Below are positions 36,851-49,574 of a stretch of DNA of 64,000 nucleotides, in pieces. Positions within the stretch are counted from its first letter, which is position 1. Every line of letters starts with the position of its first letter. The stretch is taken from contig NZ_JAUDBQ010000017.1 of assembly GCF_030372105.1 (NCBI RefSeq), positions 1 through 64,000 on the forward strand, given 5' to 3'. This DNA comes from Cellulomonas cellasea. GTDB lineage: Bacteria; Actinomycetota; Actinomycetes; Actinomycetales; Cellulomonadaceae. The notes beneath the pieces were generated by a model that worked only from the letters and a program-made list of their open reading frames with translations, was not told where the DNA came from and searched no databases. Position numbers and translations under genes: made by a program.

Positions 36851-37771
36851 TCAGGCGCGGACGAACGCCTGGATCTCCTGGCGGAGCTCGCCGGCGAGCG
36901 CGGCCAGCCCGCCGTCATGCCGCCCGTTCCCGCCGGCCGCCGCGTAGATCCGGGCGACCTGCTCGTCCATCTCGGCGGTGCGCGCCCTGATCTGCTCGAG
37001 CGCGGCCACCGACTGCGCCGCCGCGGCCTGCACGGCCTCGACCTGCACGCTGATCAGCTCCGAGCTTGCCGCCGACTCGTCCGCGAGGTTCTTGACCTCG
37101 TTCGCCACGACGGCGAAGCCCTTGCCGGCGGCCCCGGCGCGCGCGGCCTCGATCGTCGCGTTGAGCGCGAGCAGCCGAGTCTGCGACGCGATCCGCGTGA
37201 TGACCTCGACCGCGTGCTGGATCTCGACCGACGAGCGTTCGAGTGAGGCGACGATCTCCATCGAGTTCTGCGCGGCCGTCGCAGTCTCGCGCGATGCCGC
37301 GGTGAGCGCGCCGGCGGCGTCGGCGAGGCCGCCCGACTCGCTGGCGACGCTCGTGGCCACCTCGGTGATCCGGTCGCCGAGCGACTCGCGGGCCGACTGC
37401 TCCTGGGCGACGCGCGCGGCTGAGGCTGCCAGGGCCTCGCGCGCGGCGTCGATCCGCCCGGCGTCTCCGCGCAGCCGCCCCGGCATGCCCCGCACCAGGA
37501 ACCGGCGGTGGAAGCGCTGCTGCTCGGCCGCGGCCAGCACGCCGGTCGCCTCCCGCACGTAGGCGTCCATGACATCGACGGTGCGGTTGATCGACGTGCG
37601 CAGGGCCACGGCCTGCGGGGCGCCAGCCAGGGCGGGCAGGCGGTCCTCCAAGTTGCCCTCGGCGACGCCGTCGAGGAAGGCGGCGATGGTGGTGAGCGAC
37701 TCGAGGGTGCCCGCGGGCACCTGCTCGGTTGCGGTCTCGACGGTCGGCTCGGGGCGCGGGCGGCGCCTCAC
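36851..37771 (-). CDS. Soluble methyl-accepting chemotaxis signalling domain protein
   Basis: 306 residues without a transmembrane helix. Residues about 25-110 form an N-terminal helical region ([17 protein letters not shown]). The rest is an MCP signalling coiled coil with the hairpin tip [20 protein letters not shown] and [14 protein letters not shown], the site that contacts CheA and CheW. GTG 37771 overlaps the stop of the PAS gene by GTGA, so translation is coupled. Together the two genes correspond to one Aer-like PAS-MCP receptor. No other chemotaxis gene is in the window. Confidence 0.85.
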
Positions 37772-38391
37772 CGAGCGCCGGCCATCTGGCGCCCGGCCGT
37801 CTGGTTCCCGGCCATGTCCCTGCCAGCCAGTGCCCACACCCACGTGTCGAGGGTGTGGCCCGCCGAGGCCAGCTCGTCGGTGAGCGCCGCCACCCCGGCG
37901 GCGATCGCGTCCGACGTCCTCCGCTGCGCGGCTTCGGTGTGCAGGACCCGCGCGTACACGGCGGCGACCTCGTCGCGGATCTCCGGCTCGACCCAGCGGC
38001 GGTTCGAGTGGTAGCCGACGATGGCGCCCGTCGTGTCGAACGTCGGGGTGACGTGTGCGAGCACCCAGTAGTGCCCGCCGTCGGCGGCGAGGTTGACGAC
38101 ATAGGCGAACAGCTCCTCGCCGGCGCTGATGGTGTTCCACATGACCTGGAAGACGGCGCGCGGCATCCCGGGATGCCGAATCACGTTGTGGGGCATTCCG
38201 ATGATCTCGGACTCGTCATATCCGGCCACCCGCAGGAATATGTCGTTGGCGTACCGGATCACCCCTTTGGTGTCGGTCTTGGAGACGATGATCTCCTCGC
38301 GCCCGTAGGGGCGTTCCACGCCGGTGGGGACCACGCGCGAGGTTCCGCGCGGCGATGTCGCGGCTCGGGCGATGGGGGGTGTGACCAGCAT
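37768..38391 (-). CDS. Aer-like PAS sensor protein
   Basis: 207 residues. A PAS domain of the Aer/energy-taxis type covers about 30-130 ([40 protein letters not shown], then [14 protein letters not shown]), which in Aer binds FAD. A helical C-terminal segment follows. ATG 38391 is used; a -10-like TAGGAT at 38444-38439 implies a leader of about 40 nt. Its stop overlaps the start of the MCP gene, so the pair likely form one receptor complex from two polypeptides. Confidence 0.8.
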
Positions 38392-38538
38392 GGATGTCCC
38401 TACGAGGAAAAGTGCCCGATGTGGCTTTGTCTCGACAAATCCTATCGAGGCGCAGTCCCATCCCGTGCACGCGTCCAGTGTTTCCACCGCGATCCGCGCA
38501 TTGTCGGTGGGCGGTGGCCGCGGACGGTCGGCCGGGCG

Positions 38539-40101
38539 TCACCGCGCAGCGGCGCCGCGCTCCACGCGCGGGCATTCTGGCGTGGACTCGACAAGCGCGC
38601 GCAGGGCCGCCCGGTCGATCTTCCCGGTCGCGTTGCGGGGCAGCTCGGCGACGGCCACGACACGGGTCGGCAGCTTGAACCGCGCGATGGCGCGGGCGGC
38701 GAGCTCGCGCACCTGATCGAGCGGGGGGCATGCGCCGGTGGTCTCGAGCACCGCGACGACCGTCTCGCCCCACTCCGGGTCCGGCAGGCCGAGCACCGCG
38801 AGATCGTGCACGTCGGGGCCCAGCAGCTCGGACAGCGCGCGCTCGACCTCGCAGGGGAAGACCTTCTCCCCGCCGGTGTTGATCATCTGCGTCAACCGTC
38901 CGACCACCGTGAGGCAGCCGTCCTCGTCCCGGACGGCGAGGTCGCCGGTGCGCAGCCAGCCGTCGGGGGTGGTGGCGGCGCGCGTCAGTTCCGGGGCGCG
39001 CCAGTAGCCCGGGGTCACATGGGGGCCACGGACGACGATCTCGCCGGGTGCGCCGGGAATTGTCACGCTGGCGCCTGTCGCGGGGTCGTCCAGCCGGATG
39101 TCGGTCCACGGGAGCGGCAGGCCGCAGGAGCCGGCCTTCTCCACGGTCCAGCGGCGCGGCAGGTAGGTGGCGCTCGGCGCGGTCTCGGTCATGCCCCAGG
39201 ACTGCTGCAGGTGCAGGCCCCGCTCGACATAGGCCCGCAGCAGCGATGGGGGAGCGGCTGATCCGGCGATGGTCGCGGCCCGCACGCCCGACAGGTCAGC
39301 GGTGGCGAACCCCGGGCAGCGTGCGATGGCCGCGAACATGGCGGGGACGCCGAACAGGCAGGTCACGCCGGCGGACAGGTCGGTGAGGGTGCGCGCGGCG
39401 TCGAACGCCCGCCGTGACAGCACGGTGCCGCCGCGGAGCAGCGTGCGGAGGGTGAAGGCGTTCAGGCCGCCGATGTGGGACATCGGCGCGACGGCCAGGG
39501 CGACGTCGTCGTCGCGCGTGTCGAGCACCTGGTCGATGTTGCGGGCGCTCCACCACAGGTTGCCGTGGGTCAGCATGACGCCCTTGGGGGTTCCGGAGGT
39601 GCCGGAGGTGTACATGATGACGGCGAGGTCGTCGGCGGAGAGCCGGACGGGCTCCAGGTCCCCGGACCGCTCGGCACCGGTCGGGTCGGCCAGCGGCATG
39701 GCGATGCGCGCGTCGAGCCAGTTCCGATGGGCATGGTCGGCCACGAGGCGGGCGTAGGCGGCCGCGAGCTCGCTGTCGACCACGACGGTGTGCGGGTCGC
39801 AGTGGCCCAGCAGCGTGCGCACCTCGGCGGGCGCGAGCCGGAAGCTCACGGGAACGAAGACCGCGCCCACGCACGCGGCGCCGAGCAGGGTGACCAGGAA
39901 CGCCGCGCTGTTGCGGCCGGCGAAGGCCACCCGGTCGCCGGGGCGGACGCCGTCGGCGAGGAGCCGGACGGCGAGGTCCGACGCGGCGCGCTGCACCTCG
40001 GCAGACGTGTGCGCGGTGCGCTCGTCGACGATCGAGGTGGCCTGCGGATCGCGGCGCACCAGGTGCCAGAAGGCGCTGGCCGGGCTCAGGTCCGGTCCCA
40101 T
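38539..40101 (-). CDS. AMP-forming acyl-CoA synthetase
   Basis: 520 residues of the ANL family. The phosphate-binding loop MYTSGTSGTPKGV is at about 163-175; WGMTETAPS, WLRTGDLAV and a C-terminal PRNATGKIDR with catalytic Lys are visible. It ligates a carboxylic acid to CoA; the substrate is not determinable. ATG 40101 has GAGG upstream. It is third in a leftward group (CoA-transferase, transporter, synthetase), but a hairpin at 40156-40196 separates it from the transporter, so expression may differ. Confidence 0.9.
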   Translation of the reverse strand: MGPDLSPASAFWHLVRRDPQATSIVDERTAHTSAEVQRAASDLAVRLLADGVRPGDRVAFAGRNSAAFLVTLLGAACVGAVFVPVSFRLAPAEVRTLLGHCDPHTVVVDSELAAAYARLVADHAHRNWLDARIAMPLADPTGAERSGDLEPVRLSADDLAVIMYTSGTSGTPKGVMLTHGNLWWSARNIDQVLDTRDDDVALAVAPMSHIGGLNAFTLRTLLRGGTVLSRRAFDAARTLTDLSAGVTCLFGVPAMFAAIARCPGFATADLSGVRAATIAGSAAPPSLLRAYVERGLHLQQSWGMTETAPSATYLPRRWTVEKAGSCGLPLPWTDIRLDDPATGASVTIPGAPGEIVVRGPHVTPGYWRAPELTRAATTPDGWLRTGDLAVRDEDGCLTVVGRLTQMINTGGEKVFPCEVERALSELLGPDVHDLAVLGLPDPEWGETVVAVLETTGACPPLDQVRELAARAIARFKLPTRVVAVAELPRNATGKIDRAALRALVESTPECPRVERGAAAR

Positions 40102-40155
40102 CAATGCCTCACCCCTCGTGTGGGGCCGCGGGTGGCGGCGCCACCCGGGTGGTGG

Positions 40156-40196
40156 GCCGTGGTGCGCGGCGGCAGGGGCCTGCCGCGCACCACGGC
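40156..40196 (-). terminator. Intercistronic hairpin between transporter and synthetase genes
   Basis: A 15-bp inverted repeat (40156-40170 with 40182-40196) with alternative inner pairing. It may attenuate transcription or stabilise the upstream message 3' end. Confidence 0.6.
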
Positions 40197-40210
40197 TGTC
40201 GAGCGGAAGG

Positions 40211-41470
40211 TCAGGCCTTCGAGTCCGCGGCGACCGGCGCCTCCGCGGGGACGCGGCTGCCCGTGTGCTTGGCGGGAAGCCGGGTGAAGCCGAGCGTCAG
40301 CACGAGACCGACGACGGCGGCGCCGATCGCGATGACGAACGGCTTGGTGTAGTCGCCCTCGGCGCCCATGCTGGCGGCGATCCGGGGGGCGAAGAACGCA
40401 GCGATCGAGTACGCGGTGAACACGATGCCGTAGTTGATGCCCTGGAACCTGGGACCGAAGTTCTTCATCGTCAGCGCCGGGAAGATGCCCATGACGCCGC
40501 CGAAGCACAGGCCCAGGCCGATGATGCCGATGGCGAAGCCCACCGTCGACGAGACGAGCACCAGCACGAGCATCGACAGCGCGACGGTGCCGTAGATCAT
40601 CATCAGCGCGTTGGTGTAGCCAAGCCGGTCGGAGACCGCGCCCCACACGATGCGGCCCAGCATGTTGCACGCGGCGTAGATCGAGACGAACACCGCCGCG
40701 GTTCCGGCGCTGAGGCCGAACATGGCGCTCTGCCCGATGCCGGAGGCCTGCGAGGCGATCATGAGGCCCGAGAACGCGCCGACGCCCATCATCAGGAAGA
40801 TGAGGAAGAACTGCGGGGTCTTGACCATGCCCGTCCAGGGCAGGTTGACCGCCGGGCCCGCGCCCGCGGGCGGGGTCCAGCCGGCGGGCGTGAAGCCGAC
40901 CGGCGCGGCGCGCAGGAAGAGCGACGCGACGACCACGACGCCCGCGTAGACGGCGCCCATGGTCAGGAACGCGCGGTCGACGCCCGAGCTCTTGATGAGC
41001 GCCTGCGCGACAGGCGCGGCGATGACCGAGGCGGCGCCCATGCCACCTGTGATCAGGCCCGCGGCCATGCCCCGCTTGTCCGGGAACAGCTTCATCGTGT
41101 TGTTGAGGCAGCCGGAGTACGCCAGGCCCTGCCCGAGGCCGGCCAGCAGGCCGTAGCTCAGGTACAGCATGGTCGTGCTGGTCGCGACCCCGGCGAGCAC
41201 GAAGCCGCCGGCGAACATGAGGCCGCCGACGAGGATGGAGATCCGCGCGCCGCCCTTGTCGACGATCCAGCCGCCCAGGATCATCGGGATCGGCCCGATG
41301 GCCGCGTTGATGGTGAACGCCATCATGACCTCGGGCATCGTCCAGCCGCGCAGCCCGCTGAGCGGGCCCGCGAAGACGGAGAACGAGTAGATCGCGCCCG
41401 TGCACATGAGGATCGCGACGGACCCCCACAGCACCGCCCACCTGTTGATCGTCGTGCTCGGTGTGGACAT
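40211..41470 (-). CDS. MFS transporter of the oxalate/formate antiporter (OFA) type
   Basis: 419 residues with 12 predicted helices. OFA-like stretches include CTGAIYSFSVFAGPLSGLRG near the start, GLGQGLAYSGCLNNTMKLFP and GMAAGLITGGMGAASVIAAP. The family exchanges carboxylates such as oxalate/formate or imports monocarboxylates. ATG 41470 is 2 nt after the CoA-transferase stop, so the two are co-transcribed. By context it carries the acid that is CoA-activated and oxidised or reduced by this cluster. Confidence 0.88.
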   Translation of the reverse strand: MSTPSTTINRWAVLWGSVAILMCTGAIYSFSVFAGPLSGLRGWTMPEVMMAFTINAAIGPIPMILGGWIVDKGGARISILVGGLMFAGGFVLAGVATSTTMLYLSYGLLAGLGQGLAYSGCLNNTMKLFPDKRGMAAGLITGGMGAASVIAAPVAQALIKSSGVDRAFLTMGAVYAGVVVVASLFLRAAPVGFTPAGWTPPAGAGPAVNLPWTGMVKTPQFFLIFLMMGVGAFSGLMIASQASGIGQSAMFGLSAGTAAVFVSIYAACNMLGRIVWGAVSDRLGYTNALMMIYGTVALSMLVLVLVSSTVGFAIGIIGLGLCFGGVMGIFPALTMKNFGPRFQGINYGIVFTAYSIAAFFAPRIAASMGAEGDYTKPFVIAIGAAVVGLVLTLGFTRLPAKHTGSRVPAEAPVAADSKA

Positions 41471-41472
41471 GG

Positions 41473-43083
41473 TCAGGCCTTTCCGACAGGCGCGGGCGTC
41501 GTCGTCCGCGCGGTGGGGGTGTGGGTGGTGCTCAGGTGCGAGGCGAGCTCGCCCCAGGTCTGACGGAAGATCCCCGCGGGCATGAGCCGCAGGTCGGGGG
41601 AGATGGCGGGGGTGAAGTCCATCTGGTCCAGGACGTCGGCCTGCAAGTCGATCCCGGGCGCGATCTCGATGAGGGTCATGGCGTCCGGGCTGAGCTCGAA
41701 CACGGCCCGCTCGGTGACGTACAGGACCCGCTGCCCGCGCGCGGCGGAGAACGGGCCGCTGAAGGTGATCTGCTGGACCTGGTCGAGGAACTTGCGCGCG
41801 CGGCCCTCGTTGGTGATCCGCAGCGCCCCGTCGACGACCTCGACCTCGAGGCCGCCAGCGGTGAAGGTGCCCGCGAAGACCAGCGTCTTGGCGGACTGGC
41901 AGATGTTGATGAACCCGCCGCAGCCGGCGACCCGTGAGCCGAACTTCGACACGTTGACGTTGCCGGCGGCGTCGGTCTGGGCCAGGCCCAGCACCGCCAC
42001 GTCCAGGCCGCCGCCGTCGTAGAAGTCGAACTGCGCGTGCATGTCCATCAGGGCTTGCGGGTTGTAGGCGTGCCCGAAGTCCTTGAGCCCGGCCGGGACG
42101 CCGCCGATGGCGCCCGCCTCGGTGGTGAGCATGATCTGGTCGCTCACGCCCTCCTCAGCGACGACGGTGCCCACGTCGGCGGGGATGCCGACGCCCAGGT
42201 TCAGCACCGTGTGCAGGGCGAGCTCCATCGCGCAGCGCCGGGCGATGATCTTGCGCTCGCTGAGCGGGATGGGCGCGACGTCGGAGAGCGGGATCCGCAG
42301 CTGGCCGGAGAACGACGGGTTGTAGTGGGTGTTCTCCGTCTGGAAGTGGTTCTCGGGCTCGGAGACCACCAGGTAGTCCACGAGGATGCCGGGGACCTTG
42401 ACGTCGTTGGGGTCCAGCGTGCCGCGGGCGGCGATGGACTCGACCTGGGCGATGACAATGCCGCCGCAGTTGTGGACGGCCTGCGCGATGGGCAGCACCT
42501 CCATCTTGAGGCCCTCGTGGGTGAGGGTGAGGTTGCCGTCCTCGTCGGCGACGGTGCCGCGGATCAGCGCGACGTTGAGCGGGAATGAGGGGTAGAACAG
42601 CCACTCCTGCCCGGCGAGCTCGACGACCTGCACGATGTCGTCCACCGAGGACGGCGACATCCGGGCGCCCTCGACGCGTGGGTCGACGAACGTGCCGAGG
42701 CCGACCTTGGTGATGACGCCGGGTCGCTTGGCGGCGATCTCGCGGTAGAGCTGGGTGATGACGCCCTGCGGCAGGTTGTACGCCTCGCAGCCGTCGGCCT
42801 CGATGAGCTTGGCCAGGGCGGGGGAGGCGATGGCGATGCCGCCGATCCAGCGCTTGATCAGGCCCTCGTGCCCGAGGTGGCTCATGCCCTTGTCGCGGCG
42901 GTTGCCGACGGCGCTGGCGTGCATGACCGTGAGGTCGCGCGGGGCGCCGTGCTCGAGGAACCGCCGCTCGATCGCAGCGAGAGCCTCCTCGTTGACGCAG
43001 GACAGCCCGAATCCGCTCAGGGCGACCGCGTCACCGTCCTTGACGAGTTCTGCGGCCTGGGCCGCGGTGATCACGTGGGCCAT
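41473..43083 (-). CDS. Family I CoA-transferase (acetate/propionate type, YdiF-like)
   Basis: 536 residues with fused alpha and beta halves, as in YdiF and propionate CoA-transferases. The active-site Glu is in TTEAGAIGGVPAG at about residue 322. Other marks are LSGFGLSCVNEEAL near the start and VPGILVDYLVV. It moves CoA between a donor acyl-CoA and a free acid. ATG 43083 has GAGGGAGA upstream. First gene of the leftward arm, divergent from the acyl-CoA dehydrogenase gene. Confidence 0.9.
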   Translation of the reverse strand: MAHVITAAQAAELVKDGDAVALSGFGLSCVNEEALAAIERRFLEHGAPRDLTVMHASAVGNRRDKGMSHLGHEGLIKRWIGGIAIASPALAKLIEADGCEAYNLPQGVITQLYREIAAKRPGVITKVGLGTFVDPRVEGARMSPSSVDDIVQVVELAGQEWLFYPSFPLNVALIRGTVADEDGNLTLTHEGLKMEVLPIAQAVHNCGGIVIAQVESIAARGTLDPNDVKVPGILVDYLVVSEPENHFQTENTHYNPSFSGQLRIPLSDVAPIPLSERKIIARRCAMELALHTVLNLGVGIPADVGTVVAEEGVSDQIMLTTEAGAIGGVPAGLKDFGHAYNPQALMDMHAQFDFYDGGGLDVAVLGLAQTDAAGNVNVSKFGSRVAGCGGFINICQSAKTLVFAGTFTAGGLEVEVVDGALRITNEGRARKFLDQVQQITFSGPFSAARGQRVLYVTERAVFELSPDAMTLIEIAPGIDLQADVLDQMDFTPAISPDLRLMPAGIFRQTWGELASHLSTTHTPTARTTTPAPVGKA

Positions 43084-43286
43084 CTGCTGGTCTCCCTCGA
43101 CGCAACTGTCGGCTGGTCCGCCGAACAACCGCAACGATTGCGGACGGCATGCGTCGGGAATCAGGACCATCGTCCTGAGATCCGGGCGGTGCCCAGCCCC
43201 CACGATGGTGCGCAGCGGCCAGCAGAGCCGCCGTCGCACACACCTCACGCAGGTGGTGGCGAGCCCCGATGGAGAGGCGTACGACC
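43084..43286. promoter_or_regulatory. Divergent control region with two palindromes
   Basis: This 203-bp gap separates the two arms of the acyl-CoA module. It contains CCGCAA-CGA-TTGCGG at 43129-43143 and TCAGGAC-CATC-GTCCTGA at 43161-43178, both perfect inverted repeats. Either could be the operator of the TetR gene at the far end of the cluster. No convincing -10/-35 pair stood out. Confidence 0.5.
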
Positions 43287-44429
43287 ATGGACTTCGGACT
43301 GACCGACGAGCAGCAGCTCCTGCTCGAGAGCCTTGACGAGCTGCTCGAGCGCGACTGTCCCGAGTCGTACATCGCCGAGCTCGACCTGACCCACCAGCCG
43401 CCCACGACGTTCCGCAAGGCCATGAACGAGGCCGGCTTCGGGTCGCTCGGATTCCCCGAGGAGTTCGGCGGCACGCCCAGCGACGCCCTGACCCTCGTGA
43501 TGCTGGCCGAGCGCGTCGCCCGCCAGGGCCTCAACAACGGCTACGGGCTCGAGCTCCTCCAGGCCATGGACATCCTCGAGTTCGGCTCCGACGAGCAGAA
43601 GCAGGAGATCCTCGGCCTGCTCGCGGCCGGCGAGGTGCCCTTCGCCCTCGGCTTCACCGAGCCCGGGGCCGGCTCCGACAACGCGGCCATGGCGACCACC
43701 GCCGTCCACCACGACGGGATGGTGACGTTCAACGGCACCAAGACGCTCATCACGAACGCGCTCCAGTCGAAGTACCTGCTGCTCATGGCGAAGAACCCCG
43801 GCGGCGACGACCCGCGCCGGGCCATCTCGATGTACCTGGTGCCGATGGACGCGCCGGGGGTCACCACCAACCGGCTCGACAAGATCGTGTGGCACATCTC
43901 CGACTCCTGCGAGATCTTCCTCGACGACGTCACGCTCCCCGAGAGCTGCCTGGTCGGCGTCCAGGGCAACGGCTTCAAGCAGCTCATGCGCAACTTCGAG
44001 CTCGAGCGCCTGGTCATCGCCGCCAACTGCCTGGGCATGGCCCAGTGCGCCTTCGACGACGCGGCCACGTACGCCGCCCAGCGGGTCCAGTTCGGCAAGC
44101 CGATCGGCTCGTTCCAGCTCATCCAGCTCAAGCTCACCGACATGGCGATCAAGCTCGAGAACATCCGCAACTTCGTCTACAAGACGGCGTGGATGGTCGA
44201 CCAGGACCTGCCGCTCAAGAGCCAGGGCGCGCTGTGCAAGCGCTACTCCGCGATGGCGGCCTTCGAGGTCGCGGACGAGGCCATGCAGATCTTCGGCGGC
44301 GTCGGCGTGACCGTCGGCACCCGCGTCTCACGGCTCTGGCGCGACCTGCGCGGCCACCGGTTCGGCGGGGGGACCGACGAGATCATGGTCCACATCGCGG
44401 GGCGCCAGATCGTCAAGGACCACAGCTGA
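43287..44429 (+). CDS. Acyl-CoA dehydrogenase of the CaiA/YdiO group
   Basis: 380 residues of acyl-CoA dehydrogenase fold (FTEPGAGSDNAAM, QRVQFGKPIGSFQLIQ, FGGVGVTVGTRVSRLWRD). Its closest known relatives by sequence are CaiA (crotonobetainyl-CoA reductase) and YdiO, which use FixAB-type electron partners. The YEGT-type catalytic Glu is replaced (RFGGGTDE), as I recall for CaiA. ATG 43287 has GGAGAGG about 10 nt upstream. fixA follows after 29 nt, strongly implying electron exchange with FixAB. Confidence 0.88.
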   Translation: MDFGLTDEQQLLLESLDELLERDCPESYIAELDLTHQPPTTFRKAMNEAGFGSLGFPEEFGGTPSDALTLVMLAERVARQGLNNGYGLELLQAMDILEFGSDEQKQEILGLLAAGEVPFALGFTEPGAGSDNAAMATTAVHHDGMVTFNGTKTLITNALQSKYLLLMAKNPGGDDPRRAISMYLVPMDAPGVTTNRLDKIVWHISDSCEIFLDDVTLPESCLVGVQGNGFKQLMRNFELERLVIAANCLGMAQCAFDDAATYAAQRVQFGKPIGSFQLIQLKLTDMAIKLENIRNFVYKTAWMVDQDLPLKSQGALCKRYSAMAAFEVADEAMQIFGGVGVTVGTRVSRLWRDLRGHRFGGGTDEIMVHIAGRQIVKDHS

Positions 44430-44458
44430 GCCGTCCGTCCGGAGAAGGAGAACCCCCG

Positions 44459-45232
44459 ATGAAGATCGTCGTCGCCTACAAGTGGGCAGCGAACCCCCAG
44501 GACGCGGAGGTCCGCCCCGACGGAACCGTCGACCTGTCCCGCGCCAAGGCAGCCGTCAGCGAGTACGACCCGGTCGCGTTCGAGCTGGCCCGCCGGCTCG
44601 CCGACGCCACGGGCGGGGAGGTGGTCGGCCTCACTGTCGGCGACCGCTCGATCGACACGCCCCTGGCCCGCAAGGCCGCGCTGTCGCGGGGCCTGGACCG
44701 GCTGGTGATGGTGGCCGACGACGCCCTGGCCGGCGCCGACGGGACCCGTCTCGCGGCAGTGCTCGCCGCGGCGGTCACCGCGATCGGCGACGTGGGACTG
44801 GTGCTCACCGGCGACTCGTCGGTCGACGTGGCGCAGGGCCAGGTGTCGATGACCCTCGCGGGCCGGCTCGGCTGGCTCGCGCTCGGCGCCGTCTCGTCCG
44901 TGGCGCCCGCCGAGGGCGGGCTCGTCGTCGAGCGGGACCTGCCGACCGGCATGACCACCCTGCTGCTCACCGGCCCCGCGGTGCTCGCCGCCACCAGCGA
45001 CGCCGCCGTGCCGCGGGTGCCCGGGATGAAGGACATCCTGGGCGCCGCGAAGAAGCCGGTCGAGGTGCTGGCCCTGGCCGACCTCGCCGTCGAGCCCGCC
45101 GGGGTCGCCCTCAGCACGCTGGGCACATCGCGTCCGGCCGAGCCCACCCGTGGCGCCGTCCTGTTCGACGGGGACGCCGCCACCGCCGCAACCGAGCTGG
45201 TGGGCGCGCTGCGCCTGGCCGGCGTTCTGTAG
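44459..45232 (+). CDS. fixA: Electron transfer flavoprotein beta subunit (FixA)
   Basis: 257 residues beginning MKIVVAYKWAANPQDAEV, an ETF-beta domain of the FixA branch. With FixB it carries the flavin that splits electrons between quinone and ferredoxin in the FixABCX complex. Conserved LTGDSSVDVAQGQVSMTLA and VPGMKDILGAAKKPVE are visible. GGAGAAGGAG provides a Shine-Dalgarno before ATG 44459. 12 nt separate it from fixB. Confidence 0.92.
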   Translation: MKIVVAYKWAANPQDAEVRPDGTVDLSRAKAAVSEYDPVAFELARRLADATGGEVVGLTVGDRSIDTPLARKAALSRGLDRLVMVADDALAGADGTRLAAVLAAAVTAIGDVGLVLTGDSSVDVAQGQVSMTLAGRLGWLALGAVSSVAPAEGGLVVERDLPTGMTTLLLTGPAVLAATSDAAVPRVPGMKDILGAAKKPVEVLALADLAVEPAGVALSTLGTSRPAEPTRGAVLFDGDAATAATELVGALRLAGVL

Positions 45233-45244
45233 AGAGAAGGAACC

Positions 45245-46171
45245 ATGGACGTCTCAACCCAGGCCTTCGTCCTGGTCGCCGGCGACCCGGCTGTCAGCGG
45301 GCTGGTCGACGTGGCCCGGGCGCTCGGCACGGAGGTCGTGGCAGTCGTCGCGGGAGGCCAGGGCGTGGCCGCTGCCGTCGCCCCGGCCGTCGACCGGGTG
45401 CTGTGGCTCGGCGACCCGGGCGAGAACCCGGTCGAGGCGTTCGCGCCCGACGTCGCGCGGCTCGTCGCCGATGCTGCTCCCCGGGCCGTCGTGGGCGCCA
45501 CGACAGCCGCTGGCCGCGCCCTGCTCGGGGCCGTGGCCGCACGGCTCGGCGCCCCGGTGCTCGGCGGGATCGCCGCCGTGGAGCTCGACGGCGGGGCCGT
45601 CGTGGTCACGCACGGCGTCCTGGGCGGCATCGCCGAGCACCGGACCGCCGTGAGCGGCGGGCCGGCGGTCCTCGCGGTGCTGCCGGGTGCGAGCGTCCCC
45701 GCCGGCGCCGGATGCGCGATCGAGGAGGTCCTGTCCCAGCCATTGCCGGGCGCCCGGACCACCGAGGTGCGCGCCAAGGAGCAGGTCGGTGTCGACCTGG
45801 GCGAGGCTTCGACGGTGGTCGGCATCGGGCGCGGGCTCAAGGCGCGCGAGGACCTGGCCCTCATCGAGGACCTGGCCCGCGCCGTCGGGGGAGAGGTCGC
45901 CTGCTCGCGGCCCCTCGCCGAAGGGGTCGACTGGGTGCCGAAGGAGCGCTACATCGGCATCTCGGGCCAGCACATCGCCCCCGCGCTCTACGTCGCCATC
46001 GGCATCTCCGGCCAGCTGCAGCACATGGTCGGCGTCCGGGACGCCACGACTGTGGTCGCGATCAACAGCGACGCGGCGGCGCCCGTGTTCGCCCAGTGCG
46101 ACTACGGCATCGTCGGCGACTTGTACGACGTGGTGCCGGCGCTCGCCGCCGCGCTGCGGGCCGGGGCATGA
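45245..46171 (+). CDS. fixB: Electron transfer flavoprotein alpha subunit (FixB)
   Basis: 308 residues. The C-terminal FAD-binding ETF-alpha motif is clear (RYIGISGQHIAPALYVAIG, SGQLQHMVG, VAINSDAAAPVFAQCDYG-type end). The N-terminal half is an ETF domain. Shine-Dalgarno AGAAGGAA precedes ATG 45245. The stop overlaps the fixC start by ATGA. It should pair with FixA and hand electrons to FixC/FixX and the dehydrogenase. Confidence 0.93.
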   Translation: MDVSTQAFVLVAGDPAVSGLVDVARALGTEVVAVVAGGQGVAAAVAPAVDRVLWLGDPGENPVEAFAPDVARLVADAAPRAVVGATTAAGRALLGAVAARLGAPVLGGIAAVELDGGAVVVTHGVLGGIAEHRTAVSGGPAVLAVLPGASVPAGAGCAIEEVLSQPLPGARTTEVRAKEQVGVDLGEASTVVGIGRGLKAREDLALIEDLARAVGGEVACSRPLAEGVDWVPKERYIGISGQHIAPALYVAIGISGQLQHMVGVRDATTVVAINSDAAAPVFAQCDYGIVGDLYDVVPALAAALRAGA

Positions 46172-47487
46172 GCGCCGAGGCCGTCGAGCCGGACTTCGAC
46201 GTTGTCGTCGTCGGGGCCGGCCCGGCGGGCGCGGTGACCGCGTACCGGCTGGCCCGGGCCGGGCTGTCGGTGGCGATGATCGAGCGCGGGGAGGCGCCCG
46301 GGACCAAGAACCTCTCGGGCGGCGTCCTGTACGGGCGGGTGCTCGACGGCCTCTTCCCCGGCTTCGCCGACCAGGCGCCGGTGGAGCGCCGCATCACCCG
46401 GCACGTCACGACCTTCCTCACCGCCGACTCGGCCGTCGGCATCGACTACTCCGGCCGGGGTCTGGCCGACCCGGTCAACGCCGTGACAGTGCTGCGGGCG
46501 AAGTTCGACCCGTGGCTGGCCGCGCAGGCCGAGGAGGCCGGGGCCTACCTGATGGCCGGCGTGCGCGTGGACGGGCTCCTCACCGAGCCCGGCCCGGACG
46601 GCAGGACGCGGGTGGTCGGCGTGCAGGCGGGCGAGGACCAGCTCCGGGCGCGCGTGGTGGTCGCGGCCGACGGCGTGAACTCGTTCCTGGCGCGCAGCAT
46701 CGGCCTGCGCCACCAGGAGCCCACGAACCACATGGCCGTGGGGGTCAAGGCCGTCATGGCCCTGCCGCGCACGGTGATCGAGGACCGGTTCGGGGTGAGC
46801 GGCGACCAGGGCGCGGCCCACGCGATCGTCGGCGACTGCACCGCGGGCATCGGCGGAGGCGGCTTCCTGTACACCAACACCGAGTCGCTCTCCGTGGGCG
46901 TCGTGCTGCGGCTCGACGACCTGCTGCGCTCGGGGCGCACGGCCGCCGACGTGTTCGAGCGCTACCTCGCGCACCCCGGGCTTGCGCCCTACCTGCGGGA
47001 CGCGAAGGTCATCGAGTACGGCTCCCACCTGGTCGCCGAGGGTGGCTACGACATGTTCGGCGAGGTCGCCACCGACGGGCTGGTCGTGGTGGGCGAGGCC
47101 GCGGGCCTGACCATCAACAGCGGCCTGACGGTGCGCGGCATGGACCTGGCGATCGGATCGGGCATCGCGGCGGCGGACGCCATCGTCGAGGCCGTGGCGG
47201 CGGGCGACCTGTCCCGCGCGGGGCTCGCCGGGTACCGGCGGCGGCTCGAGGAGGGCTTCGTCTTGCAGGACATGAAGACCTACGCCCGCGCGCCGAGGTT
47301 CCTGGAGCGGACGGGCATGTACGGGGCGTACGGGGAGCTCGCCGCGAGCGTGTTCCACGACGTCTTCTCCCTCGACGGCGCCCCTCGGCGGCACCTGGTC
47401 TCGACGGCCCGGGCCGCGCTGAAGAAGTCCCCGGTGGGCATCCGCCAGCTGGTCAGTGATGGATGGGCGGGAGTGAGAGCGCTGTGA
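46168..47487 (+). CDS. fixC: FixC flavoprotein (ETF-quinone oxidoreductase-like)
   Basis: 439 residues. The FAD-binding dinucleotide motif VVVVGAGPAGAVTAYRLARAG is at about 11-31, followed by GTKNLSGGVLYGR, VVVAADGVNSFLA and VVVGEAAGLTINSG. FixC passes electrons between ETF FixAB and the quinone pool at the membrane. ATG 46168 overlaps the fixB stop, and its own stop overlaps the fixX start (GTGA). Confidence 0.93.
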   Translation: MSAEAVEPDFDVVVVGAGPAGAVTAYRLARAGLSVAMIERGEAPGTKNLSGGVLYGRVLDGLFPGFADQAPVERRITRHVTTFLTADSAVGIDYSGRGLADPVNAVTVLRAKFDPWLAAQAEEAGAYLMAGVRVDGLLTEPGPDGRTRVVGVQAGEDQLRARVVVAADGVNSFLARSIGLRHQEPTNHMAVGVKAVMALPRTVIEDRFGVSGDQGAAHAIVGDCTAGIGGGGFLYTNTESLSVGVVLRLDDLLRSGRTAADVFERYLAHPGLAPYLRDAKVIEYGSHLVAEGGYDMFGEVATDGLVVVGEAAGLTINSGLTVRGMDLAIGSGIAAADAIVEAVAAGDLSRAGLAGYRRRLEEGFVLQDMKTYARAPRFLERTGMYGAYGELAASVFHDVFSLDGAPRRHLVSTARAALKKSPVGIRQLVSDGWAGVRAL

Positions 47488-47765
47488 GCACCACGGTTCC
47501 CGAGCGGCTGGCCCGCAATCGGTTCGTCCTCGACGAGGAGGAGTCGCACATCGTCATCGACCAGGAGGCCTGCCGGGCGACAGGCGCCGGCAAGGCGCTG
47601 ATCGCGGTGTGCCCCGCCGGGGTGTACCGCGAGCAGGACGGCGAGATCTTGGCCGACTACGCCGCGTGCCTGGAGTGCGGCACCTGCCTGGCGGTCGCCC
47701 CGCCCGGCGCCCTGACGTGGCGCTACCCGCGCGGCGGGTTCGGCGTCAGCTTCCGGGAGGGGTGA
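47484..47765 (+). CDS. fixX: FixX ferredoxin-like protein
   Basis: 93 residues, the small Fe-S partner of FixC. Cys are placed as in FixX: CPAGVY, then CLECGTC, plus one at QEAC. The end YPRGGFGVSFREG matches the E. coli FixX tail as I remember it. It completes fixABCX. GTG 47484 overlaps the fixC stop. The last 20 nt overlap the converging tetR gene. Confidence 0.92.
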   Translation: MSTTVPERLARNRFVLDEEESHIVIDQEACRATGAGKALIAVCPAGVYREQDGEILADYAACLECGTCLAVAPPGALTWRYPRGGFGVSFREG

Positions 47766-48483
47766 GATCGGGCTCGACGGGCGCCCCGGGTGACTCGGGC
47801 GCCCGGCGGGCGTAGCCCTCGGCCGCGAGCTGGCGGTCGACCATCTCCTCGATGTACCGGGGCACCGTCTGGCGTACCCGGTCCACCAGGTGCGGGGGCG
47901 TGACCAGCACGTGCATGAGCACCGAGCCCTCGACCGCGTCCAGGAGCTGGATCGCCGACGCCCCCGGGGGGAGCTCGCCGGACTGCACCGCCGCCTCCAC
48001 GCGCCGACGCTGCGAGAGCACGAAGTCGGTGATGGCCTCCCGCCGGATGTCCGAGAACACCTCGGGGTAGGCCCGCGACTCGACGTACAGGCGGAGCATG
48101 GCCAGCCCGTACGGGCCGAGGTAGAGCTCGGCGCGCTCATTGGCGTGCGTGATGAGGTAGTCGCGCAGCGACGGGGGCGGGCTCGGCTCGGCGTCCTGGT
48201 CGTCGGGGGCGGCTGTCGGCGCGGTCAGCTCGTCGCCGCCCTGAATGCGACGCAGGGCTGAGGTGAGGAGCTTCTCCTTGTCGGGCCACCGCAGGTACAC
48301 CGACGACTTGCCGACCCGCGAGCGGCTGGCCACCTCGTCGATCGTGAGGCCCGACCAGCCCTTCTCGCCGTACACGTCGAGGGTGGCGCGCAGCGCGCGG
48401 TCCTCGAGCTCTGGGTCGCGGGGGCGCCCTCGGCGTCGAGGGGGTGCGGCGGCGGCGTCGTCCTCGGGCTCGCGCGTCGTCAC
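47746..48483 (-). CDS. TetR-family regulator next to fixX
   Basis: 245 residues. An Arg/Pro-rich start (PPRRRGRPRDPELEDRAL) precedes a TetR HTH (IDEVASRSRVGKSSVYLRWPDK); a ligand domain with LITHANERAELYLGP follows. GTG 48483 is used because TAATGT (48496-48491) is 7 nt upstream; GTG 48492 is an alternative. It converges on fixX with a 20-nt overlap and is the best candidate regulator of the acyl-CoA/fix module. Confidence 0.85.
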   Translation of the reverse strand: MTTREPEDDAAAAPPRRRGRPRDPELEDRALRATLDVYGEKGWSGLTIDEVASRSRVGKSSVYLRWPDKEKLLTSALRRIQGGDELTAPTAAPDDQDAEPSPPPSLRDYLITHANERAELYLGPYGLAMLRLYVESRAYPEVFSDIRREAITDFVLSQRRRVEAAVQSGELPPGASAIQLLDAVEGSVLMHVLVTPPHLVDRVRQTVPRYIEEMVDRQLAAEGYARRAPESPGAPVEPDLTPPGS

Positions 48484-48493
48484 GCCCCCCACA

Positions 48494-49099
48494 TTAGTCG
48501 GCGCGCGGAGCGGCCCCGTCCCACTCGGCGACCTGGCCGAGCGCCGCCTCGAGCGTCTCGACGGCGCCGGACGTGCTGGTGCGCGCCACGACGAGCGCTG
48601 TGACGCTCAGTGACGTGAGGACCCGCGCGCGCCGCAGCGCCTCGGCGCCGTCGAGCGCGGGGTAGCGCGTGGAGAGGCCGTGCCGGAACGCGTCGACGAG
48701 CTCCGCGCGGTAGGCGTCGACGACCGCCCGCTGCGCGTCGTCGCGCGCCGCGAGGCCCGCGGTGCTGTCGATCAGCAGGCAGCCGCGCCGCGCGGCGTCC
48801 TCGGTGCGCCGCGCGAGCGCGTCGGCGAGCCCGCGCAGGTAGACGAGCACGGCGTCAGGGTTGCCGGGCTCGGCGGTGAGGACCCGCAGGCGTGGCCGGA
48901 CGACGGTGTCGAGGTAGTCGCGCACCGCCGCGTCGAACACCCCGCGCTTGTTCTCGAACGCGTGGTACAGGCTCGAGCGGGCAAGGCCTGTCGCCTGCTC
49001 GAGGTCGGGCACCGAGGCGCCGTCGTAGCCCTTGTCCCAGAAGACGTCGCGGGCGGCCTGGACCACCTGTGTGGTATCGAAGCCCGGATGCCGTCCCAT
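48494..49099 (-). CDS. TetR-family regulator
   Basis: 201 residues with HTH near the N-terminus (TTQVVQAARDVFWDKGYDGA, then TGLARSSLYHAFENKRG) and a TetR_C domain with RRGCLLIDSTAGLA. It belongs to the branch that often regulates an adjacent oxidoreductase. ATG 49099 diverges from the DUF1304 gene. Its stop TAA forms part of the -10 inferred for the next tetR gene downstream. The 88-nt gap upstream contains a palindromic CTATAG usable as a -10 on both strands. Confidence 0.85.
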   Translation of the reverse strand: MGRHPGFDTTQVVQAARDVFWDKGYDGASVPDLEQATGLARSSLYHAFENKRGVFDAAVRDYLDTVVRPRLRVLTAEPGNPDAVLVYLRGLADALARRTEDAARRGCLLIDSTAGLAARDDAQRAVVDAYRAELVDAFRHGLSTRYPALDGAEALRRARVLTSLSVTALVVARTSTSGAVETLEAALGQVAEWDGAAPRAD

Positions 49100-49187
49100 G
49101 ACCACCGCCGATCGTGTGCGTTGAGGCTTCCACCCTATAGTGGAACGACTGGTCCAGAAAATCTGGGCATCGGCGAGGGGCAGTGGC

Positions 49188-49574
49188 ATGACAGTGGCAG
49201 GGCTCGTGCTGGCGGCAGTGGCCGCCCTCATCCACGTCTACATCTTCACGATGGAGTCGCTCACCTGGACGTCTGAGCGCACGCGCCGGACGTTCGGCGC
49301 CTCACCCCAGGAGGCGGCCGCCACGCGGGAGATGGCCTTCAACCAGGGCTTCTACAACCTGTTCCTCGCGGTGGCGGTGATCGTCGGCATCGTCGTGACC
49401 GCCGCCGGCGCCCCGACGGTCGGCCTGACGCTCGTCCTGACTGGCACGGGGTCCATGGCCCTGGCCGGCGTCGTCCTGCTGGCGTCCTCACCCGACAAGG
49501 CGCGTTCCGCGCTCATCCAGCTCATCCCACCCGCGCTCGCGGTCGTGGCGATCGTGGCCGCGCTCATCGCCTAG
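49188..49574 (+). CDS. DUF1304 membrane protein
   Basis: 128 residues with four hydrophobic helices. DUF1304 hallmarks are LIHVYIFTMESLTWTS and ATREMAFNQGFYNLFLA. Function is unknown. ATG 49188 has GAGGGG 7-8 nt upstream. It lies 45 nt before the oxidoreductase gene and diverges from tetR. TATAGT at 49136-49141 can be its -10, and TGGA-N8-TCCA nearby at 49141-49156 may be a TetR site. All three genes likely form one regulated unit. Confidence 0.85.
   Translation: MTVAGLVLAAVAALIHVYIFTMESLTWTSERTRRTFGASPQEAAATREMAFNQGFYNLFLAVAVIVGIVVTAAGAPTVGLTLVLTGTGSMALAGVVLLASSPDKARSALIQLIPPALAVVAIVAALIA

Follow-up and report, generated by a model that had tools for sequence, protein, structure and literature searches.

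Here we show that the first 64,000 nucleotides of contig NZ_JAUDBQ010000017.1 of Cellulomonas cellasea (the window) carry a divergent module of nine genes at 38539-48492, which we interpret, with moderate confidence, as a self-contained respiratory system for 2-enoic acids in which the electron-transfer proteins FixABCX would be non-bifurcating. The genes of the module, together with a candidate operator in the promoter region between its two strands, are as follows:

38539-40104, minus strand: AMP-forming acyl-CoA synthetase (ligase), PF00501
40211-41470, minus strand: major facilitator superfamily (MFS) monocarboxylate carrier of the OFA/SfMCT kind, NCBIfam NF049980 and PDB 6g9x
41473-43083 (frame open to 43248), minus strand: YdiF-type CoA-transferase, PF01144 and PDB 2ahu
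43141-43175, divergent promoter: candidate operator CGGAC-N7-GTCSG-N6-GGACSATSGTCC, exact match in the window
43287-44429 (first ATG of the frame at 43269), plus strand: CaiA/YdiO-type acyl-CoA dehydrogenase, PRK12341 and tree
44459-45232, plus strand: fixA, electron-transfer flavoprotein (ETF) beta-type, without RxGV and SPTxV in the aligned places
45245-46171, plus strand: fixB, ETF alpha-type, THGVLGG replacing TRPTFGG
46168-47487, plus strand: fixC, ETF:quinone oxidoreductase (ETF-QO) flavoprotein, PDB 7koe_C and 2gmh
47463-47765 (or GTG start at 47484), plus strand: fixX, ferredoxin-like subunit, PDB 7koe_D
47746-48492, minus strand: TetR-type regulator, PF00440, at the end of the module

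An initial annotation of this DNA, made from the sequence alone, had placed a ligase, an OFA-type carrier and a CoA-transferase on one strand and a dehydrogenase with fixABCX on the other in an actinobacterial host; all of these stand, and every named module gene is an intact open frame in the frame list and domain scans. The same annotation described the four fix genes as overlapping, which holds for fixB/fixC (4 bases) and fixC/fixX (25 bases, or 4 if fixX starts at the GTG), whereas fixA and fixB are separated by 12 bases. The fixX and TetR genes are convergent and overlap by 20 bases. The module genes are not chance frames, given the match of the dehydrogenase to the YdiO model (E 1.9e-155), the recurrence of the gene order in other genomes, and pairwise dN/dS values, which stay under 0.6 for each of the nine genes in all pairs calculated (the dehydrogenase range being 0.06-0.23; five relatives, or four for the fix genes, which are absent in L037). 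Recent transfer was considered on the basis of base composition and rejected, since the G+C content of the module (72.2%) is not unusual against that of the window (73.1%); the whole genome around the window amounts to 3.8 Mb.

Searches of other genomes confirmed that the gene set recurs in other Actinomycetota, albeit patchily: at a threshold of E 1e-90 or better the dehydrogenase was found in 11 of 150 Cellulomonadaceae genomes (a count that takes in its own), with identities of 83-100% in ten and 54% in the remaining one. A sample of 396 genomes from the phylum, where scoring was limited to the top four first-look candidates of each genome and misses are possible, gave matches in seven, namely its own and six of one other family (f35). 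From a scan of named genomes the best 80 of 552 relatives were kept as loci; these include an Acidimicrobiaceae metagenome-assembled genome (MAG) with a dehydrogenase at 62% and, more distantly, Ancrocorticia, Propionibacteriaceae, Winkia, Trueperella, Coriobacteria and Enterobacterales. The full order (TetR, fixXCBA and dehydrogenase divergent from transferase, carrier and ligase) is the same in six other family genomes (L031-L036) and in the named loci L055 and L060, the L055 transferase being matched in two frames. Genome G037 has the dehydrogenase and fixABCX, and is without the other strand's genes and the TetR gene.

Kinship of the dehydrogenase with CaiA and YdiO, which had been proposed from the sequence, was upheld by model searches and by phylogeny. 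Its best NCBIfam model is that of YdiO (517.6 bits, below the cut-off of 537), followed by that of CaiA (354.4 bits), and its identity is 46% to YdiO and 39% to CaiA. A tree was built from 86 of 126 rows, after removal of near-copies and of two thirds of the outgroup, by a quick search with no bootstrap that gave a warning about long branches in other parts of the tree. The window enzyme falls there in a 62-row group with CaiA and YdiO (Shimodaira-Hasegawa approximate likelihood-ratio test, SH-aLRT, 100), apart from the sampled general acyl-CoA dehydrogenases. Within this group the cellulomonad enzymes and that of one Acidimicrobiaceae MAG form a branch of their own (SH-aLRT 99), separate from E. 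coli YdiO. The group is also marked at two alignment positions: Glu occupies position 240 in 49 of 49 rows (46 loci, L054-L098 and L132, plus the window, YdiO and CaiA) and position 361 in none, whereas outside it Glu is found at 361 in 40 of 50 rows (the copies L125/L126 included) and at 240 in two. By comparison with 4l1f, the window enzyme has Glu240 and carries Gly361 at the place of the canonical catalytic Glu. We take position 361 to be the catalytic Glu of butyryl-CoA dehydrogenase (4l1f), and in isovaleryl- and long-chain acyl-CoA dehydrogenases the base presumably lies on the helix of position 240. Linkage to fix genes follows the same division, with at least one linked fix gene in 39/46 CaiA/YdiO-group loci versus 6/34 other loci, and all four in 31/46 versus 1/34; some of the seven group loci without fix genes stop at a contig edge (L063, L077, L090).

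A different cluster with a YdiO-type dehydrogenase was observed in Actinotalea (L039/L066) and in L061, L062, L064, L065 and L069, where it stands with an OYE-type reductase, a CaiD-type hydratase and a CaiC-type ligase, mostly also with a CaiB-type transferase and fix genes. This cluster is common to Actinotalea, Cellulomonas, Ancrocorticia, Propionibacteriaceae and Eggerthellaceae.

The initial annotation also proposed that the dehydrogenase is coupled through electron bifurcation by FixABCX, and this part of the proposal is not supported by the analysis. Bifurcating (group-2) ETFs carry three conserved motifs, of which RXGV and GXXSPTXV share a subunit and RPXFGG belongs to the other; in Thermotoga, ferredoxin reduction is lost when the RPXFGG Arg is changed to Gln or Met, and changes at the other residues tested have less effect (PMC10734219). 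From rhizobial proteins and the alpha chain of PDB 7koe we placed RXGV and GXXSPTXV in FixA and RPXFGG in FixB, the subunit letters of PMC10734219 being the reverse of this placing. The window FixA and FixB have none of RPxFGG, RxGV and SPTxV in the aligned places, and the motif Arg is replaced by His (THGVLGG). Across the fix sets surveyed, RPxFGG is present in 4/4 nif-linked, 0/3 mycofactocin-linked and 0/65 other FixB rows; RxGV in 3/4 nif-linked FixA rows and, at the aligned place, in 0/72 others (five text matches lie elsewhere in the protein); and the core SPTxV in 3/4 nif-linked and 0/72 other FixA rows. The fourth nif-linked FixA row, L171, looks frame-shifted; the rows devoid of motifs include E. 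coli FixAB and YdiQR. It is important to note that some rows are counted twice (L036 = L054, L038 = L057, L039 = L066, L040 = L064, L041 = L075), that the other rows include sets without a nearby dehydrogenase (e.g. L162, L164-L166), and that length limits and unreadable frames removed some rows; without doubles and L042, the non-nif rows number 67 for FixA and 60 for FixB, and the motif counts are still 0.

For the four subunits, identities to E. coli are 35% for FixA to YdiQ, 38% for FixB to YdiR, 43% for FixC to YdiS (43-45% to YdiS/FixC) and 38% for FixX to YdiT. FixC matches Thermotoga EtfC (7koe_C, E 7.4e-68) and ETF-QO (2gmh, E 1.7e-17). FixX (7koe_D, E 1.1e-17) has four Cys for one [4Fe-4S] cluster (VCP and CLECGTC), and is without the ligands of the second cluster seen in Thermotoga, where both FixX-type clusters are on the quinone branch (PMC10734219). 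A search of the genome for ETF-QO-type Fe-S domains gave nothing besides the sub-threshold FixX. From the missing group-2 motifs, the resemblance of FixC to ETF-QO and the lack of any other ETF-QO Fe-S domain match, we conclude that this FixABCX most probably combines an ETF with a quinone oxidoreductase dedicated to it, an ETF:menaquinone oxidoreductase. In genome G029 a second fixC (L166, G029:C2:2561310-2562600) matches in two frames and may be broken.

The carrier scores 393.7 bits against the model of the SfMCT lactate carrier (NF049980, cut-off 320) and 187.2 bits against that of the oxalate/formate antiporter, well under its cut-off of 335; its PDB match is SfMCT itself (6g9x, E 1.2e-51). 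In SfMCT, Tyr119 and Arg280 bind the carboxylate and Asn276 orients Arg280, D257A, D378A and H250F are inactive, H250A retains about 12% activity, and lactate is transported, with propionate and butyrate competing but staying untransported (PMC6573034). Tyr119, Asn276, Arg280 and Phe359 are kept in 12/12 cellulomonad carriers (the carboxylate-site residues of the window carrier being Y118, N269 and R273), whereas His250, Asp257 and Asp378 are kept in 0/12; in the alignment OxlT, an antiporter, has Asn at the place of His250. With the carboxylate site kept and the proton-coupling residues lost, the carrier may be an exchanger of two monocarboxylates that has lost proton coupling.

The transferase is 42% identical to E. 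coli YdiF over 504 amino acids, with YdiF as best PDB match (2ahu, E 1.2e-130), and its Glu322 aligns with YdiF Glu333, which we take to be the catalytic residue. Transferases of this type were found in 15 of the 80 loci, comprising cellulomonad-like loci, Enterobacterales and the actinobacterial MAG loci L068 and L072. The ligase is 30% identical to E. coli FadK and reaches the cut-off of none of the 25 NCBIfam models listed for it. At 52-63% in five relatives it is less conserved than any other enzyme of the module; it occupies the same place in L031-L037 and in L055, L058 and L060, and a role as CoA primer is possible. An MFS carrier, a YdiF-type transferase, a YdiO-type dehydrogenase and the start of a fixA also lie in a row in a Coriobacteriales MAG (L072:392-6536), with a possible ferredoxin-like protein upstream (sub-threshold Fer4_11), and provide a carrier-transferase link outside the cellulomonads.

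A pair of inverted repeats is common to all 12 aligned divergent promoter regions (L014, L054 and loci without transferase left out), and the chance expectation for the pattern in the window is 0.05 at up to three mismatches. Over 24 genomes, matches with 0-1 mismatch lie solely at this divergent promoter, in 8/8 genomes having the promoter; G048 has two copies of the pattern. At up to two mismatches the pattern occurs in 14/24 genomes, with seven two-mismatch matches elsewhere versus three for a reversed control. Genome G076 keeps the site despite having lost the linked fix genes, and the TetR gene's own promoter has no such site at two mismatches. The TetR gene lies beside the module in 7/7 loci L031-L037, as well as in L055, L056 and L060, though not in L038. 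The TetR protein is the probable switch of the module and a candidate to bind the repeat site. In the window a second TetR gene (48494-49231) directly adjoins the first (47746-48492), the two standing back to back; among the loci of relatives, a match beside the module was obtained for the first alone.

Taken as a pathway, the module would operate in the following manner. The carrier would exchange an external unsaturated monocarboxylate for an internal saturated one, as its residues suggest; the YdiF-type transferase would load the enoate with CoA taken from acetyl-CoA or the saturated product, and the ligase would prime or top up the CoA pool, both as expected from their families. The dehydrogenase, whose family is established by phylogeny, would then reduce the enoyl-CoA with electrons that menaquinol would deliver, by way of FixC and the single-cluster FixX, to FixB/FixA serving as an ordinary ETF. 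Binding of the TetR protein to the conserved paired inverted repeats would switch both operons together. A like path, from quinol through a non-bifurcating ETF to the dehydrogenase, is reported for enoyl-CoA respiration in Syntrophus aciditrophicus (PMC8805022); there the quinone enzyme is a membrane ETF:methylmenaquinone oxidoreductase (EMO), whereas here it would be FixCX, with carrier and CoA enzymes in the same module. The direction leans toward reduction on account of the exchanger-like carrier, whose residues tilt it, together with the cai-like pairing of ligase and transferase, the kinship to CaiA, a reductase in anaerobic carnitine respiration (PMC3680233), and the retention of the dehydrogenase and fixABCX in G037, in which no thiolase or 3-hydroxyacyl-CoA dehydrogenase (3HCDH) match was found.

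A number of observations weigh against this interpretation, and these are best considered along with the alternatives. Loss of the proton-coupling residues does not prove antiport, and Tyr383, the partner of His250 in SfMCT, is present in the window carrier and in 7/12 carriers overall (Phe in five). Genome G076 has lost the linked fix genes and kept the rest of the module, and holds a separate fixABCX set (FixC 61%) 2 Mb away; eight residues just upstream of this distant fixA are identical to the end of the dehydrogenase and are perhaps a relic, though at E 0.41 this is no more than suggestive. Genome G037 is about 90% complete and in 200 contigs. The literal GXXSPTXV motif is found in no row, the nif-linked proteins (0/4) reading GxxGSPTVV.

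Further points against it concern direction, and together they make up the case for the module running in reverse, which we judge possible though doubtful: a short saturated acid (butyrate or similar) would be imported, activated by the transferase with acetyl-CoA and oxidised, electrons would pass through FixABCX to menaquinone, and FadB and thiolase would finish the process. A FadAB-like pair (C3:65574-67786) and a second thiolase in the same genome make oxidation possible, and the finding of no other ETF-QO Fe-S domain in the genome fits this route as well. Salmonella ydiQRSTD has been tied to butyrate use (PMC6249985), and E. coli YdiO and YdiQRST are described as part of anaerobic beta-oxidation, the effect of YdiQRST being called unclear (PMC10318755). 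However, a search of 24 family genomes gave 3HCDH in 22, whether or not they carry the module, so that it is not tied to the module, and the carrier is without the residues used by SfMCT for proton-driven uptake. Judged by redox potentials, menaquinone is also a poor acceptor for electrons from acyl-CoA.

Within the reductive interpretation, and compatible with it, the substrate could be a hydroxycinnamate (ferulate, p-coumarate or caffeate) from plant cell walls, an identification that we consider rather unlikely. Cellulomonads live on plant matter. The YdiF-like FarA of Weissella makes feruloyl-CoA in an anaerobic electron-sink pathway, although short-chain acyl-CoAs are given as the substrates of YdiF itself (PMC13101492), and the SfMCT site binds the aromatic monocarboxylate thiosalicylate (PMC6573034), whereas no aromatic-acid enzyme was detected among the ten locus proteins scanned.

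It is improbable, in our assessment, that FixABCX bifurcates as in Azotobacter or Thermotoga, with NADH as the donor both to ferredoxin and to enoyl-CoA or quinone. In favour stand the identical name and subunit composition, the match of FixC to Thermotoga EtfC, and the motif Arg taken alone, which is kept in 27/65 non-nif FixB rows, 8/11 cellulomonad rows among them. Human ETF also has this Arg, so the residue alone was dropped as a test of bifurcation and the whole RPxFGG motif was used. The motifs are missing from the window and, at the aligned positions, from the 65 FixB and 72 FixA rows linked to neither nif nor mycofactocin genes, and the window has His for the Arg. FixX keeps one of two cluster sites, which is a weak argument given that nif-linked FixX of L050 and L171 is also without the distal ligands; cluster number was likewise dropped as a test. 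The nif FixABCX (Azotobacter, rhizobia) and Thermotoga EtfABCX have the same four subunits, window FixC being 34% identical to a rhizobial FixC, but the window set differs in its missing bifurcation motifs, its single FixX cluster and a locus free of nif genes. The best FixC matches in a plasmid collection are in mycofactocin-linked FixABCX of Streptomyces plasmids (FixC 47%, FixX 47%), which stand amid mft genes and OYE-type oxidoreductases, with no such dehydrogenase annotated in that stretch. FixABCX-like sets inside or beside mycofactocin genes were observed on Streptomyces plasmids (L051, L052) and a Haloterrigena plasmid (L172).

A carnitine (cai) system, in spite of the shared CaiA-type dehydrogenase and divergent layout, is very improbable, as the initial annotation had supposed, given that none of the ten locus proteins scanned matches CaiB, CaiD or CaiT, that the dehydrogenase is nearer to YdiO than to CaiA and lies outside the CaiA branch, and that the relative G128 has a separate CaiA-like locus (L163) beside its ydi-type locus. 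E. coli caiTABCDE/fixABCX likewise combines a dehydrogenase, transferase, ligase, carrier and fixABCX in a divergent layout; the window differs in having a YdiF-type transferase for CaiB, an MFS carrier for CaiT and no match to CaiD or CaiE. Locus L163 (G128:C24:145500-163500) is itself a cai-like cellulomonad locus, with 70%, 46% and 43% identity to E. coli CaiA, CaiB and CaiC, respectively, along with fixABCX.

The resemblance to E. coli ydi/cai clusters seen at the outset can thus be sharpened to a nearly full ydi set (YdiF, YdiO, YdiQRST and a ligase). E. coli ydiF-ydiO-ydiQRST-fadK encodes the same set of enzymes, the window ligase being a possible counterpart of FadK, and the bifurcation motifs are missing there too. 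The E. coli cluster lies on one strand except for the inserted ydiP, whereas the window module is divergent and adds a carrier, a TetR gene and the repeat in the promoter common to both strands. The regulators also differ in kind and place: YdiP, an AraC-like regulator, is encoded inside the E. coli cluster, and the TetR-type gene stands at the end of the window module. Homologues of fixABCX and caiABC have been reported in two Propionibacterium species (PMC7650540). We did not find the module described in the literature retrieved on Cellulomonas fixABCX, actinobacterial FixABCX, and crotonate or acrylate as acceptors in Cellulomonas, which was represented by excerpts and, in part, by titles.

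Adjoining the ligase, at 36851-38487, two overlapping minus-strand frames contain PAS-domain and MCP-signalling pieces that look as if they were one redox-taxis receptor gene with a frameshift. These pieces gave no tblastn match at E 1e-5 in the loci of 11 relatives and are not counted in the module.

The role of E. coli ydi is unsettled, and bifurcation is what FixABCX is chiefly known for. The substrate, the direction and the path of the electrons could be worked out cleanly in a compact module such as this actinobacterial one, with its own carrier and a likely switch. The motif survey suggests that many genes named fixABCX should not be annotated as bifurcating. More tentatively, and as a speculation that we do not hold to be probable, all CaiA/YdiO-type dehydrogenases with linked FixABCX may form one widespread machine for enoyl-CoA respiration, with FixABCX as a non-bifurcating quinol:ETF module and a relocated catalytic base in the dehydrogenase, to which cellulomonads would have added an antiporter and a TetR switch in order to respire plant-derived enoates, either short or hydroxycinnamates, during oxygen-free cellulose breakdown. 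If the reductive reading is true, facultative cellulose degraders would possess, unreported in the literature we searched, an electron sink of this kind.

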